DNA of 64,000 nt from Thermoproteota archaeon. Its GTDB lineage: Archaea > Korarchaeota > Korarchaeia > Korarchaeales > Korarchaeaceae. The position numbers were made by a program, and so were the translations under genes. The stretch lies in contig JALSOH010000004.1 of NCBI GenBank assembly GCA_026986575.1, positions 434,001-498,000 on the forward strand, written 5' to 3'. The notes beneath the pieces are model-generated. The model was not told the origin of the DNA and did not search any database. It saw only the letters and a list, made by a program, of their open reading frames with translations. Every line of letters begins with the position of its first letter. The first letter of the stretch is position 1. This document shows, one piece after another, positions 43,541 through 50,007 of the stretch.

Positions 43541-43969
43541 TTATTCTCCGCCTGATCCTTGAAGTAGCTTATTGACTACATCCCTGAGTTCTCCCTTCTC
43601 CCTCGGGATATCGTACTCCATGCACATCAGGTCAGCAGCTTCCGCGTACTTACCTTGGATCCTCATGCCCGATTTGCAGTAGATCCTCTTCTTCCTAGCT
43701 TGGTAGCATATCTCGCAGATGAGGATGGAGAGGTCCTTCTTAGTGAGGTCCTTGTTTATCAGTCCGGTGGCTATCCTGTTGACTATCCTCATGATCTCCT
43801 TATCGTTCCTCAGATCTATTATGTTGCCCCTTGCCCCCCTCAGGTACTGGCTTATGGCAGCTTGGGTAACCCCAAGCATCTTAGCCACGTCTGTCTGTCT
43901 GAGCTTATACTTAGTTATGAGTTCCTTGGCTACTAGGGCCCTCACGGATGGGATGAGCGTTTTAACCAC
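43541..43969 (-). CDS. XRE-like HTH regulator with C-terminal cysteines
   Basis: A 142-residue archaeal transcription regulator (COG2522-like). The HTH is LRQTDVAKMLGVTQAAISQYLRG (about residues 23-45, split by a turn). The C-terminal part has ILICEICYQARKKRIYC and later MCMEYD, cysteines that could bind metal or sense redox. It starts with GTG at 43969. The promoter region contains two perfect palindromes, one covering the TATA box, which suggests self-repression. Confidence 0.85.
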   Translation of the reverse strand: MVKTLIPSVRALVAKELITKYKLRQTDVAKMLGVTQAAISQYLRGARGNIIDLRNDKEIMRIVNRIATGLINKDLTKKDLSILICEICYQARKKRIYCKSGMRIQGKYAEAADLMCMEYDIPREKGELRDVVNKLLQGSGGE

Positions 43970-44090: not shown

Positions 44091-45197
44091 TTAGGACGTG
44101 GAAATGACCACCTTGCCATTCTTCTCGAGATCCCTCACCATCTGTGGCATTACCGCCCATGTGCTGTGAACAACTACCTCTCCCCATCCAGAGTCAATCA
44201 ATTCCCTCGACAGACTGAACATGAGCAGCTTGTCGAACTCGCTCTCGTTAGAGAGAGCTCTCTCATCGCTGAGCAGCTTAATCATCGTTGCTGCCACTAG
44301 GGAGTCCTCCAACCTCTCAGCGAGCTTGCCTTTACCCTTGGGATCTGCTGGAAGCCTAGCATTCCTGACGAACTCCCTATCTATCTCCTCCATGATCTCA
44401 CTGGCAATGAGGGATAACTTAGCCTCCGTTTCCTTGAGAGCGAGTCTCTCCTCGTCTATGGGCAGCTCTTTAGCGACTACTTCGGCCTCTCTGTCTAAGA
44501 GTTCCTGGATCTCCGCTCTCCTGATGTCTATATAGTCCAATGCCTCCAGCTTAACCTCATTAAATGTCCTCCACCTCAAGAGGTTAACCGGCTCCTCCGG
44601 TACTATCTCATCCGGATCGTATCTGACCTCCTCCGTGGAGTGCATCGCATCTAAGATCTCATCCAGATCGAAGAATACGCTGGCCTCCCTTATAGCGGCT
44701 GCGGGATCATCCGCAGCATGTATGATGTTAAGCACCCTGTTGGTGCCCTTCAAGTCATACCTCAGGTTCCCCGGTTTACCAGCATCTGGTGTCGTTGGAC
44801 CGATTATGTCTCTCAACTTGGCGCTCAGGTGCTCGAACTCCCCAGGGTCCCCAACTAGGATCATCGGGATCACAGGGGCCTGACTGAACACCTTGGGCAT
44901 GATCCACCAAGAATCGAAGTACTTCTGCTTCACGAACATGTAGAGCTCATCAATGAGGGTCTCATCCATCTCGGTGACCTTCATGGCAACGGGAATAAGT
45001 CCGGATTCCTTCAGCCTGCTTATGACCTCTGGAGCGAGACCTCGCACGAACGCATCTGGCTTCACCATGGCGAAGGTCATCTTGGGTAGTGAGGAGATGT
45101 GCTCATCGTCAGCCTCGGAGACGAACTTCTCCTTAAGCTCCGCGAAGACAGGCCTCTCGACCTCATCTTCCCTCTCGAAGTAGGCCAGTGGATCCAT
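44091..45197 (-). CDS. nucleoside diphosphate kinase-like protein with long C-terminal extension
   Basis: Residues 1-40 form an acidic leader; 41-185 are an NDK fold (MTFAMVKPDAFVRGL, then AVGIGPTTPDA-like DIIGPTTPDAGKPGNLRYD) with the catalytic His160 kept in NIIHAADDP. The usual NIIHGSDS has lost its Gly and Ser. Residues about 200-368 are a helical domain I cannot assign, ending in WGEVVVHSTWAVMPQMV. Normal archaeal NDK has 140-160 residues. ATG 45197 has GGGGTGATC upstream and is 4 nt after the STT3 stop, so the two are an operon. It may be an active NDK with a targeting domain or a divergent nucleotide-binding protein. Confidence 0.75.
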   Translation of the reverse strand: MDPLAYFEREDEVERPVFAELKEKFVSEADDEHISSLPKMTFAMVKPDAFVRGLAPEVISRLKESGLIPVAMKVTEMDETLIDELYMFVKQKYFDSWWIMPKVFSQAPVIPMILVGDPGEFEHLSAKLRDIIGPTTPDAGKPGNLRYDLKGTNRVLNIIHAADDPAAAIREASVFFDLDEILDAMHSTEEVRYDPDEIVPEEPVNLLRWRTFNEVKLEALDYIDIRRAEIQELLDREAEVVAKELPIDEERLALKETEAKLSLIASEIMEEIDREFVRNARLPADPKGKGKLAERLEDSLVAATMIKLLSDERALSNESEFDKLLMFSLSRELIDSGWGEVVVHSTWAVMPQMVRDLEKNGKVVISTS

Positions 45198-45201
45198 TAG
45201 A

Positions 45202-47226
45202 TCACCCCTTGACCTTAAATATGGCCACCTCGACATACCCTTTATTCTTACCCACGTGAACCAAGTCAAAGTAGTTCAGCTTGGCTCCACCTATCGCGTT
45301 CAGGGCCATCTTGTATAGAGTGGTATTCAGCGTGTAGTCCGTGGGAACGGAGCGTCCCGTAGTTCTGTCGTAGATGAAGAACTTCTGCAGATCCTGGGCG
45401 AACCACTTCCTGGCCTCGTCAGGTCTATAGGGGCTGTGCTGGAACTCTCCAGCTATCCAAGCCATGGCTACCCACTTACCCCCTCCTGAGAACTGCCCCA
45501 CTTCTCTGGGCACATCAACAACGACGTAGGTGGCGTTAAACCTACTTACTAGGTCTAACATTCTCTCCTCGGGACCGATGAAGGCCCTTGCCACTAACCT
45601 TATCTGGGTGGAGTTTATGGTGAGTCCGTCCACCATCGTTATCTTCCCCGCTCCGGTCTGCATCCAGTAACCGTAGTCCCACCAAGATACCACGACCTCA
45701 TCGGGCTTTGTATTCTGCTTCAACCACTCCAACGCATCCTTCCATCCCTCGGTGAAGCCGAGCGGGTACTCCATGGCCTCTTGGAAGGTAAGGACGTACT
45801 CTGAGTGTCCAGCGCCGTAATTCCTTATGTGGCCCTGGAAGGCAACTGGAAGCACTACTAGGAGGATCATCATCGTGACAGGAACCTTCATCATTCCCAG
45901 CTTCTTGGACATAGGAAGACTACCGCCCCTTCTCTTCTTAGCCCTCTCCAAGGATCTTATCTTTTTCATATAAGGTTCTGAGAACACCACTATCCTGTAA
46001 GCGAAGAAACCCGATACGAGCGCCACGAAAGGCGCGGCTAACGGGGGTAGCCTCACTATGCTGGTGGCGAAGTAGAGGGATATCAGGGTCATGAGGCTTA
46101 TCATAAGCTCGTCGTCGTTCCTCCACCTCTCCATCAGCAGGAAGAAGAGGCCCAGCACTCCGGGTATTAAGAGAGTGGTTAAAGTTTCCACAGTCGCTCC
46201 GGCACCGTGTTCAGCTACAGTCTCGACGACATTTCCCTGTGGAAGCTTCACTGACGGGAATAGGACCCTCATCAGCCTGCCCGTGAGGGGCTGGTATATG
46301 CCCAATGCGAAAAATGCAACGAGCAGGGCCAGTCCGACTCCAACGGATACTATCCTCCTCCGCTCGCTCAGGGCTCTCACGTTGATCTTGGGGAGGGAGA
46401 TGTAAACTAAGGCAGCTAGTAGAGAGGCCCAGACGAGCGTGCTCTCCACGCTTATGTAAAGCCTCCTGTAAGCTTGGTTGGAGAGGAACCCGAAGCTAGC
46501 CAGCAATACATAGAGAGGGGGCAACCCCAATGCCAGACCCTCACGCCAGTCCAACCTGTTCAGTAAGAGGAGGATCATGAGGAGCAACGCGTAACCGTCG
46601 TAGAGCGCCTTGAATCCCGCCCATACCCCTGCTGAGTACACCAAGAAGAGACCGCTAAGTCCAGAGTAAGCCAGTACCTTCCATTCTTCCTCACTCCTCA
46701 TGGCCTTTATCGTGAAGTACATTGAGGTCATGAGCAGGGGAATGGCGAACTGCTCGTGCCTGTACCATCCTGCTAGGGACCTGTTTATGTACGCCCAAGA
46801 TAGGGAGATGGCGAATGCGGATGTTATGGCCGCCGACCTATCCCACAGCTCCTTAGCCAGTAGATAGACTGGTATGACCACCAGCGGAGCGAATACGACC
46901 GGTATATACACTACAACCGTGTAAAGGTCGTTGAAACCGAAGAGAGACGCGATCTTATAGATCGCGGCACCGGTGTAGTAGTGAAGTATGGGCAGCACCT
47001 CGCTGGGATTGTAGCTCCAAGGATGCCAAGCTAGGGGATCGAACGTTGGAAGGTGCCCCGTCTTCACTAGGTACTCCGTTATCCTGTAGTGCAGCAACGG
47101 GTCGTCTGCAGTGAGGTGGGCTCCGTACTTGAAGGTCGGGAGGACCCTAATAATGGCACCCATTATGTAAGTGACTGCTATGACGAGAACATCGATTAAC
47201 CTGCCCTTCACGCCATCGTCGGGCAA
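45202..47226 (-). CDS. aglB: oligosaccharyltransferase STT3/AglB
   Basis: The catalytic subunit that transfers a lipid-linked glycan to Asn in N-x-S/T sequons on the outer face of the membrane. The 674 residues have about thirteen membrane helices, the first external-loop acid motif TADDPLLHYR (Asp41-Asp42) for metal binding, and WWDYGYWMQTGAGKITMVDG (about 512) with the WWDYG signature. The C-terminal globular domain is short. The start is TTG at 47226 with AAGGTGA 8 nt upstream. N-glycosylation would act on the surface proteins found elsewhere in the window. Confidence 0.93.
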   Translation of the reverse strand: MPDDGVKGRLIDVLVIAVTYIMGAIIRVLPTFKYGAHLTADDPLLHYRITEYLVKTGHLPTFDPLAWHPWSYNPSEVLPILHYYTGAAIYKIASLFGFNDLYTVVVYIPVVFAPLVVIPVYLLAKELWDRSAAITSAFAISLSWAYINRSLAGWYRHEQFAIPLLMTSMYFTIKAMRSEEEWKVLAYSGLSGLFLVYSAGVWAGFKALYDGYALLLMILLLLNRLDWREGLALGLPPLYVLLASFGFLSNQAYRRLYISVESTLVWASLLAALVYISLPKINVRALSERRRIVSVGVGLALLVAFFALGIYQPLTGRLMRVLFPSVKLPQGNVVETVAEHGAGATVETLTTLLIPGVLGLFFLLMERWRNDDELMISLMTLISLYFATSIVRLPPLAAPFVALVSGFFAYRIVVFSEPYMKKIRSLERAKKRRGGSLPMSKKLGMMKVPVTMMILLVVLPVAFQGHIRNYGAGHSEYVLTFQEAMEYPLGFTEGWKDALEWLKQNTKPDEVVVSWWDYGYWMQTGAGKITMVDGLTINSTQIRLVARAFIGPEERMLDLVSRFNATYVVVDVPREVGQFSGGGKWVAMAWIAGEFQHSPYRPDEARKWFAQDLQKFFIYDRTTGRSVPTDYTLNTTLYKMALNAIGGAKLNYFDLVHVGKNKGYVEVAIFKVKG

Positions 47227-47323
47227 ATTAGCTTCACCTTCGGGGATGTCTGACCCCCTCTTATAAAAATTGATCGAACGCCCGCGGCATCAATGTTATA
47301 AGAATGAGCCGAGATGAGGCCCG

Positions 47324-48214
47324 ATGGTGAGATCGGAACCGCCTCTAAACCCGAAACTAGCGCTGGCCGTAGGTATAGCTGCAGTATCCACTGCGAGCAT
47401 ACTGATAAGATTCAGCGAGAGCAACCCCCTAATCATAGCGGGTTATAGGATGGCATTCGCCTCCCTCCTCATGTCAATTCTCTCTGTAGGCTCCCTAAAT
47501 CAGATAAGGGGCCTCTCTGATGCGGAAAGGGCGGTCCTCATCTTGTCTGGGCTGAGTTTGGCGGTACACTTTGGCACATGGACGGCCAGCTTGGAGTACA
47601 CTTCTGTAGCTGCGAGCACGGTCATAGTTGACTCCTCACCGATATTCGTCGTCCTCCTCTCCTATCTGGTGTTGGGTGAGGGAGTCAACACCAGAGAGGC
47701 GGCAGGCATAGCGATATCCTTTCTGGGAGCCTCGATAATCGCGATGGGCCACTTAGATATGAGCTCCAATCTATTCGGAGACTTTCTCGCGCTAGTAGGA
47801 TCGATATCCTTGGCTGTTTACCTAGTGGCCGGGAGGAGGTTGAGGGGGAAGCTCGACCTCGCACCGTACACAGCGTCAGTGTACGGGATATCCGGGATAA
47901 TCCTTCTCCTTGCAGCTAGCGCGGCAGGCATCCCCCTCGCAGGGTACCCATTAAGGGAGTGGACGATATTCCTGGCGCTGGCTCTCATTCCGAGCGGGCT
48001 AGGCCACAACTCCTACAACTACGCACTCAAGTACCTGAAGGCCTCCGTCGTTAGCGTATCCATACTGGGAGAGCCTATCGGTGCATCTATACTGGCTGCG
48101 ATTCTGCTGAGGGAGCTACCCCGCGTTACTACGGTCATCGGGGGCGCTCTAGTTTTAGGTGGGATTTACGCAGCTGTTACCTCGCAGAAAGGTGTTCCCA
48201 ATGGGAATCGTTGA
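47324..48214 (+). CDS. EamA/DMT family transporter
   Basis: A 296-residue membrane protein with ten helices in two EamA repeats, each ending with the repeat signature (LSGLSLAVHFGTWTASLEYTSVAAS; LIPSGLGHNSYNYALKYLKASVVS). Typical substrates are amino acids or other metabolites; none can be named. It overlaps the nucleotidyltransferase gene by 14 nt. The ATG at 47324 follows the divergent aglB promoter region, with a TATA-like TTATAAGAAT near 47297-47306. Confidence 0.85.
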   Translation: MVRSEPPLNPKLALAVGIAAVSTASILIRFSESNPLIIAGYRMAFASLLMSILSVGSLNQIRGLSDAERAVLILSGLSLAVHFGTWTASLEYTSVAASTVIVDSSPIFVVLLSYLVLGEGVNTREAAGIAISFLGASIIAMGHLDMSSNLFGDFLALVGSISLAVYLVAGRRLRGKLDLAPYTASVYGISGIILLLAASAAGIPLAGYPLREWTIFLALALIPSGLGHNSYNYALKYLKASVVSVSILGEPIGASILAAILLRELPRVTTVIGGALVLGGIYAAVTSQKGVPNGNR

Positions 48215-49007
48215 GGAGGCAGTCATTCTAGCCGGAGGAAAGAGCACTAGGTTCGGGAGAGATAAGCTGACCTACAAGGTTAACGGTAGAGAAATGCTAG
48301 TTAGGGTGGCTGAAGCAGCTCTGGCAGTAGCAGAGAAGGTCATTCTCTCGGTTAGAAGTGAGGAAGATGGTGAGAGACTATCTAAACTAACTGGACTGGA
48401 CTACAGGATCGATGAACAATTACCCTGCACGGGGCCCATCAGGGGCGCGCTCTCCTCGGTCAAAGAGGAGTATACTCTGCTTCTCCCTGCTGACCTGCCT
48501 TGGGTGAATGGTGATGTGTTGAAGTCCTTTCTGGGGATGTGCGGGGACTCCTCAGTCCAGATATGTGGTCTCCTGTGGTCCACCCAAGGGAGGTACTTGG
48601 ATCCAATGATCGCTCACATTCATTCCTTGGAACCGCTGATCCACGTGAAAAAGGCTTGCCCTTTGAAGAACATGAGAGTGACCGATATCCATAGAGCCGC
48701 TTCCTCTCTCCTGATGATCTCAGCCGGTCTTCTGGATGAACCTTGGAGGCTCTTAGATGTAGACAGACCAGAAGATCTCGTGAGAAGGGAGGGAAAATGG
48801 GAGAAGGGGCTCCTGTACATCGCTCCTAGAACCTTAGGGAATCCCTACAGGAGGGCCATTGAGGAGCTAGAGACGGGATCCCTCAATGGAGCCCGTGAGA
48901 TGTTTAATTTGGAGTTATCTATATTCTGGGATGTGGAAAACATCCGCGATCATGTGAACAAGGACCTGAGGTCGCTGGGTGGGAAGGATGGAGGTAGTGA
49001 TAAATAA
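48201..49007 (+). CDS. MobA-like nucleotidyltransferase
   Basis: Residues 1-190 form a MobA/GlmU-type NTP transferase domain: the signature AVILAGGKSTRFGRDKL binds the nucleotide and LLLPADLPWV carries the metal-binding Asp. MobA attaches GMP to molybdopterin; related proteins act on other cofactors. Residues 190-268 are an extra domain (LGNPYRRAIEELETG) not found in plain MobA. ATG 48201 is chosen since AAAGGTG precedes it and the family motif begins 9 residues later. It overlaps its neighbours at both ends, so three genes are coupled. Confidence 0.8.
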   Translation: MGIVEEAVILAGGKSTRFGRDKLTYKVNGREMLVRVAEAALAVAEKVILSVRSEEDGERLSKLTGLDYRIDEQLPCTGPIRGALSSVKEEYTLLLPADLPWVNGDVLKSFLGMCGDSSVQICGLLWSTQGRYLDPMIAHIHSLEPLIHVKKACPLKNMRVTDIHRAASSLLMISAGLLDEPWRLLDVDRPEDLVRREGKWEKGLLYIAPRTLGNPYRRAIEELETGSLNGAREMFNLELSIFWDVENIRDHVNKDLRSLGGKDGGSDK

Positions 49008-50007
49008 GAACGAGACCTTCGAGCCAGCTGGGAGGTACGACAGGGTCGAGTGCCGGGGGTCAGCGAGGATAAAGGGGGCCCTAGAAGCCACTGAGGTCGT
49101 GTGTAAGGGAAAGCTCGAGGCTGAGGAGTTATTCGTGGTAAGGGTGGAGGCAAGGGGTCTGAAATGCAGGAGAATCAGGGCAAGGGAACTGATCACGGAC
49201 TTCTTGGAGGCAGGAACGGTGGAGGTAGAAAGGGCGTACATCCGCGGTCCAGCTAGGGTTAGCAGCTCCATCAAGGCGGTTGAGGTGAGGGTGGAGGGTT
49301 CCCTGTCCTGCGCCGCACTCGAGGCGAAGGAGGCGATGATCTCAGGCAGTTTCAGGGCCCTGAAAGTGGATGTCAAGCATCTGGAGGTAAAAGGATCCCT
49401 TGAGGTAGACGAGGGGCGTATAGATCGAGCCTCAGTCGGAGGATCAGCTAAGCTTGGAAACTGCGAGATACTCGGAATCAGAGTGGGAGGGACATTAAGA
49501 GTAACTGGGAGCACCAACATCGGAGAAGCAGAAACGGGAATGGCAGAGGTGACTGGGCGCTTAACAGGAGGACTGCTGAAGGTAGATGAGGTTTTGAAGG
49601 TAGGGGGCGATGTTAGAGTAAGGACCTTGAAGGTAGGGGGAGCCCTCAAAGTATCAGGATCCCTTTCCGCGGAGGAAGCTCATGTATCCGTGAAGGGGAA
49701 GGGCAGATTGGCGGGCGGAAGGATCATAGTGGTTGGGGAGGCCACCGAGGTTGAGGGGGAGGAGATCCAACTGATAAACGCTAGAGTATCGAAGGTGATC
49801 GGAGGGAGGGTGAGGGTAAGGGATTCCTCCGTTAGAGTCATTAATGCGGTGGAGGTCGAAGTGATGGGAAGATCTAGGGTATCACAAATAGCGGCAGAGA
49901 AGGTTTACGTGGCTGGCGGGATGGTAGAAAAGGTGTACTACACGGAGAGGTTATTTGTATCACCGGAAGCCCAGGTGAAGTGGGAAAAGAAGGTGGCCAG
50001 CTTATGA
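48988..50007 (+). CDS. bactofilin-like / polymer-forming beta-helix protein
   Basis: A 339-residue soluble protein built of short repeated strands with alternating hydrophobic and glycine residues (VEGSLSCAALEAKEAMISG; VGGSAKLGNCEILGIRVGG; VGGALKVSGSLSAEEAHV), the pattern of bactofilins and DUF583 'polymer-forming cytoskeletal' proteins, which fold as beta-helices and form filaments. It is about twice as long as bacterial bactofilins. There is no signal or membrane segment, so it is cytoplasmic. The start ATG 48988 lies inside the end of the nucleotidyltransferase gene. Confidence 0.7.
   Translation: MEVVINKNETFEPAGRYDRVECRGSARIKGALEATEVVCKGKLEAEELFVVRVEARGLKCRRIRARELITDFLEAGTVEVERAYIRGPARVSSSIKAVEVRVEGSLSCAALEAKEAMISGSFRALKVDVKHLEVKGSLEVDEGRIDRASVGGSAKLGNCEILGIRVGGTLRVTGSTNIGEAETGMAEVTGRLTGGLLKVDEVLKVGGDVRVRTLKVGGALKVSGSLSAEEAHVSVKGKGRLAGGRIIVVGEATEVEGEEIQLINARVSKVIGGRVRVRDSSVRVINAVEVEVMGRSRVSQIAAEKVYVAGGMVEKVYYTERLFVSPEAQVKWEKKVASL

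Follow-up and report, generated by a model that had tools for sequence, protein, structure and literature searches.

The window (the whole 64,000-nt stretch of DNA analysed) carries on its minus strand a gene for an NDK-like protein that is probably the sole working NDP kinase of its clade, relocated and remodelled relative to the ordinary archaeal enzyme; we infer both the activity and the direction of the relocation. This reading is supported by the model fold, the catalytic residues, the presence of a single PF00334 copy, the restriction of the long form to one clade, the empty old site and the conserved adjacency to an STT3 gene. Against it stand a score under the NF001908 cut-off, the lack of a conserved equivalent of Phe60, the fixed Asp164 and Tyr147, and a long branch. 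The NDK enzyme is highly conserved, and the class in question appears to have lost the ndk gene of the ribosomal cluster and to rely on a remodelled NDK with an undescribed domain, paired with an oligosaccharyltransferase gene. If this pairing is functional, it would connect control of the nucleotide pool to N-glycosylation; if it is not, the gene still offers a clear example of a core enzyme that changed place and acquired a domain. The long forms make up a protein family of modest size, amenable to experiment, from a deeply branching lineage of archaea.

The NDK-like gene lies four nucleotides downstream of STT3/AglB

The NDK-like gene (44091..45197, minus strand) encodes 368 amino acids plus a stop codon and was recognised by its translation, its PF00334 match and its structural model. 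The gene upstream of it on the same strand (45202..47226) encodes an STT3/AglB oligosaccharyltransferase of 674 amino acids, with a TTG start that is the choice of the ORF caller. This protein is a member of the STT3/AglB family PF02516 (91.1 bits versus a cut-off of 24.5), also matches PF21436 over the cut-off (24.7 bits), and carries the WWDYG motif, read in the translation. It was the one STT3 match in a search of the genome, and its score against TIGR04154 (archaeosortase-associated STT3) of 101.7 bits falls below the subfamily cut-off of 450.

As originally predicted, only 4 nt separate the STT3 stop codon (TGA) from the ATG of the NDK-like gene, a spacing read directly from the ORF coordinates. 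A longer NDK-like ORF beginning at a TTG at 45269 was set aside as a mechanical ORF call, and the ATG at 45197 was used. A Shine-Dalgarno-like sequence, GGGGTGAT (45201..45208, minus strand), presumably serves the NDK-like gene, lying just before its ATG; because it overlaps the STT3 stop codon, translational coupling from STT3 to the NDK-like gene is likely. A candidate archaeal TATA box, TTTTTATAAGA (47259..47269, minus strand), precedes STT3. Since the EamA-like transporter gene beyond STT3 has the opposite orientation, the operon seems to begin at STT3 on that side, and the two genes likely form a two-gene operon.

On the other side, a gene for an HTH_3 regulator (43541-43969, minus strand) lies 121 nt beyond the stop codon of the NDK-like gene. 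An HTH_3 gene was matched at the same place in eight loci (L032-L039), whereas in L040-L044 none was matched close to the NDK-like gene.

An NDK core with a structured leader and a C-terminal helical domain

The NDK core (residues 39-185; 44643..45083, minus strand) matches PF00334 at 80.7 bits (cut-off 27), the match spanning residues 41-181. A whole-protein AlphaFold2 model, built from an alignment of 13 sequences, has a mean pLDDT of 95.1 and a pTM of 0.91, and structure comparison overlays its core on solved NDKs across their full length. Compared with the solved NDK 3vgu_A, the predicted core gives a Z of 19.1 and an rmsd of 1.6, with 140/140 residues aligned. Together with the presence of the active-site residue His160, these results bear out the expectation of an NDK fold that keeps its catalytic histidine. 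The NCBIfam equivalog model NF001908 scores the protein at 79.7 bits, below its cut-off of 155, and we have therefore filed it as a divergent member of the NDK family and not as an NF001908 equivalog.

The leader and the C-terminal domain are both conserved across the class and both confidently folded in models. The leader, predicted at about 40 residues, is 38 residues long (residues 1-38; 45084..45197, minus strand) and contains predicted helices at 3-7, 14-28 and 31-39. Its motif YFxREDxxE is invariant in the 13 aligned sequences; over the 20 long forms compared, the leader is invariant only at F7, D11, E14 and L37.

The C-terminal domain (residues 186-368; 44094..44642, minus strand) is, at 183 amino acids, somewhat longer than the roughly 170 residues first proposed, and it is helical as proposed: residues 196-368 modelled alone give helices only, with a mean pLDDT of 93.5. 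Residues 190-368 gave no Pfam match above cut-off, and the domain gave no NCBIfam match above cut-off, in line with its description as a domain of unknown type. A profile search of PDB sequences returned two matches and nothing better than their E-values of 0.31 and 0.72, while Foldseek with the domain alone found no match below E 0.69. With VIA-align 2 the top match (Z 8.2) was a designed protein and other helical bundles scored almost as high, a result that is uninformative for helical bundles. We thus found no support for a known domain in Pfam, NCBIfam, the PDB profile search or structure comparison, which does not imply a new fold.

Searched alone against 297 genomes, as the original prediction had proposed, the C-terminal domain profile proved restricted to the class, matching the 21 class genomes that carry the long form, apart from two weak, partial matches in other archaea (E 0.0016 and 0.0020, ORFs of 117-118 aa). 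We put these two down to helical composition. Substitutions accumulate faster in the domain than in the core, with a dN in four pairs of 0.13-0.32 versus 0.05-0.13; dN is quoted rather than dN/dS since dS was 0.8-3.0 where computable and mostly saturated otherwise. Judged from these substitution rates, both the domain and the core are under constraint. The last helix (HSTWAVMPQM) is strongly conserved, with a mean pairwise identity of 0.71 versus 0.50 for the whole domain, and E340, H344, W347, A348, Q352, M353 and D356 are invariant in 20/20 long forms.

The long form is the only NDK match in its class, and the old ndk site is empty in the four class genomes examined

The NDK-like gene is the only PF00334 match in its genome. 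The same search was positive in 12 of 14 control genomes, and at this sensitivity we rejected the presence of a second, normal NDK elsewhere in the genome. Among 26 genomes assigned to a single class, apparently Korarchaeia, 21 yielded the long form, in one copy each, that of G003 being split over two contigs, and no class genome gave a short NDK match. The five class genomes lacking a long-form match are 63-78% complete; the STT3 match runs off the contig end in three of them (G004, G017 and G023), and the other two also lack an STT3 match. True absence of the long form from these five is not supported, given their incompleteness and the cut or missing STT3 match. The window genome belongs to the same genus as G009, a one-contig genome.

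Outside the class, the three relatives from the same phylum (G026-G028) have one ordinary short NDK each. Of the 35 outside-class genomes searched, six gave no NDK match, five of these being 94-99% complete; NDK is not universal in archaea, and therefore an active NDK cannot be taken for granted in the clade. Two trees place the long forms in one clade among archaeal NDKs with a support of 1.00, on a branch of 1.29 in one tree and 1.42 in the other. Deeper nodes are weakly supported in the tree with the branch of 1.42, which omitted one ordinary NDK (row L021).

PMC10833476 gives the archaeal cluster order as L7Ae-S28e-L24e-ndk-infB and reports that ndk was not found in three Lokiarchaeote genomes. 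The phylum relative G026 has L7Ae (recognised by eye), S28e (Pfam), ndk and infB in that order. In the class genome G000, L7Ae, S28e and L24e (Pfam-checked) run into infB, which follows 30 nt after L24e with no ndk between them. The arrangement looks the same in G009, G016 and G025, where the small ribosomal genes were identified by eye, so that ndk was missing from the L24e-infB site in all four class genomes examined. The long form may be the old ndk gene itself at a new location, or it may be a divergent copy that took that gene's place.

STT3 adjacency is conserved and glycan genes lie nearby in distant relatives

The link to STT3 is conserved: in 19/19 genomes of the family that yielded both genes, STT3 is directly upstream of the NDK-like gene on the same strand, while the other neighbours of the pair vary. 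The gap between the aligned ends of the two genes is 7-28 nt in 18 of these genomes and 135 nt in one, in which the STT3 alignment ends 24 residues before the end of the query. To our knowledge, aglB in most archaea lies among glycosyltransferase genes and not beside ndk; in G026, outside the class, the NDK and STT3 genes are 102 kb apart.

The NDK-like and STT3 genes diverge in two more distant class genomes, 5.4 kb (f2) and 2.1 kb (f3) apart. Between them in f2 (L076 5176-10230) lie genes that match the TrmB (C-terminal part), O-antigen polymerase, PMT_2 and C5-epimerase families; the NDK-like gene diverges from the first three, and the C5-epimerase match follows on the other strand, then STT3. 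In f3, reading the NDK-like ORF from its first start codon gives an 11-nt overlap with the end of a PMT_2/ALG9-like membrane glycosyltransferase gene. The gene comes after this second membrane glycosyltransferase in the most distant genome of the class. These genomes have few PMT_2 matches (eight in f3, STT3 counted).

In three genomes from three genera (L094, L095 and L096), a gene recognised by eye as RpoL-like precedes STT3; L094 and L095 also have, further upstream, a Csl4-like gene that was likewise recognised by eye. The RpoL-like and Csl4-like genes ahead of STT3 suggest an older mixed operon.

A nucleotide-linked role of the long form in glycosylation is possible, and gene order makes a dedicated role plausible. 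In its strongest form, the protein would be a dedicated glycosylation-linked NDK whose C-terminal domain docks on AglB or other membrane glycosyltransferases, recycling UDP/GDP or supplying CTP/UTP and thus feeding the synthesis of lipid-linked oligosaccharides, whether in addition to the whole-cell supply or in its place. The constancy of the STT3 adjacency (19/19 in the family) among varying neighbours, the other glycan genes that border the NDK-like genes of f2 and f3, and the strong conservation of the last helix all favour such an arrangement. We nevertheless consider it unlikely. As the sole NDK match, the protein probably must serve the whole cell; the adjacency may persist without interaction; and the structure comparisons of the domain are uninformative and so give no sign of a fold suited to membranes or to partner binding. 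Moreover, the RpoL-like gene before STT3 in three genera means that the locus is not purely glycan-related and, because the locus adjoins a gene of this RNA-polymerase-subunit-like kind there, co-expression without physical coupling suffices to explain the gene order. It is quite unlikely that the two roles are combined, the class-specific C-terminal domain tethering a sole NDP kinase to AglB or the membrane and so tying nucleotide regeneration (or phosphohistidine phosphotransfer to a lipid-linked substrate) to glycan transfer.

The catalytic set is invariant while the base-binding hairpin has changed

Lys46, Tyr86, Arg129, Thr135, Arg146, Asn157, His160 and Glu171 are invariant both in 20/20 long forms and in 26/26 ordinary archaeal NDKs. 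The former are 20 of the 21 long forms, with the split gene of G003 omitted; the latter come from the 29 outside-class genomes with a match, with the fragmentary G034, G044 and G058 omitted. The roles of Thr135 and Glu171 in this set, as well as the match between this numbering and that of NME1, are our assumption. Lys46, Tyr86, Arg129, Arg146, Asn157 and His160 are the equivalents of Lys12, Tyr52, Arg88, Arg105, Asn115 and His118, which PMC10482350 gives as nucleotide contacts of NME1.

The original prediction had made much of the loss of the Gly and Ser of the HGSDS motif, a description that is literally true of this protein but misleading. The Gly position is Ala in 25/26 ordinary archaeal NDKs, so a missing Gly is normal in archaea. 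At the Ser position, the 20 long forms have Ala (11), Ser (7), Thr (1) or Gly (1), so that 7/20 keep the Ser, and the 26 ordinary NDKs have Ser (25) or Ala (1). With Ala ordinary at the first position, Ser varying within the clade at the second and the catalytic set invariant, we rejected the reading of the motif change as lost activity, and the argument from this motif for a special role falls away.

Further changes close to the active site are nevertheless fixed. Asp164, a Ser to Asp change in the motif, is present in 20/20 long forms and 0/26 ordinary NDKs (Ser 22, Gly 2, Glu 1, Thr 1), and the same is true of Tyr147, after the second Arg (Gly 25, His 1 in ordinary NDKs), and of Trp97-Trp98 in the base-binding hairpin (YxxSWW). 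Tyr93, inside a 2-residue insertion in the hairpin, is also invariant in the long forms. The base-stacking Phe60 of NME1 sits in this hairpin, according to PMC10482350, and is without a conserved equivalent in the long forms, being aligned to F94 or S96 by two alignments that place the insertion differently. Since the catalytic set is invariant while the hairpin changes are fixed, base binding may be altered and the chemistry kept. It is very improbable that the protein is a pseudo-kinase, its NDK fold binding a nucleotide or phosphorylated lipid and sensing or regulating AglB with little phosphotransfer: the lineage-specific fixed Asp164, Tyr147, Trp97 and Trp98 around the active site and the score below the NCBIfam cut-off would suit such a protein, but all eight catalytic or phosphate-binding residues are invariant in 20/20 long forms and the genome has no other PF00334 match.

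On the question of whether the protein is simply the housekeeping enzyme, also raised in the original prediction, the lack of another PF00334 match in the genome and the invariant catalytic set point to housekeeping, whereas the conserved STT3 link does not.

Proposed origin and comparison with known systems

For the clade's relocated and remodelled NDP kinase we propose that ndk left the L7Ae-S28e-L24e-ndk-infB cluster, gained the leader and the C-terminal helical domain, and settled behind STT3/AglB in a two-gene operon. The protein would most likely act as a normal ping-pong kinase, in which an NTP phosphorylates His160 and the phosphate is passed to another NDP. The YxxSWW hairpin and the extra domain would probably alter base stacking, oligomeric state or partner binding, not chemistry, and co-expression with AglB could help to supply UTP, GTP and CTP for nucleotide sugars and dolichyl phosphate.

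The long form shares with archaeal NDK (PF00334; PDB 2cwk and, from Halobacterium salinarum, 2az3) the fold, the catalytic His and the phosphate-binding Lys, Arg, Thr and Asn. It differs in the added leader and 183-aa C-terminal domain, in the 2-residue insertion and Trp-Trp of the hairpin, in having HAxDDP in place of HASDS, and in its gene neighbourhood. The eukaryotic NDK homolog 7 (9cpc_4V, 377 residues) is of similar length and likewise has an NDK core within a longer protein. NME7 has a second NDK domain, whereas the long form matches PF00334 in one stretch only, and the searches turned up no sequence relative of its C-terminal domain beyond the class. We found no description of this long-form protein in the openly accessible portion of the Korarchaeota and NDK literature.

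Elsewhere in the window, a MobA-like NTP transferase gene (48159-49007) lies ahead of a plus-strand gene (48979-50007) for a protein of 342 aa whose bactofilin match (PF04519), here in an archaeon, is weak but above the cut-off (29.0 bits versus 27.9).
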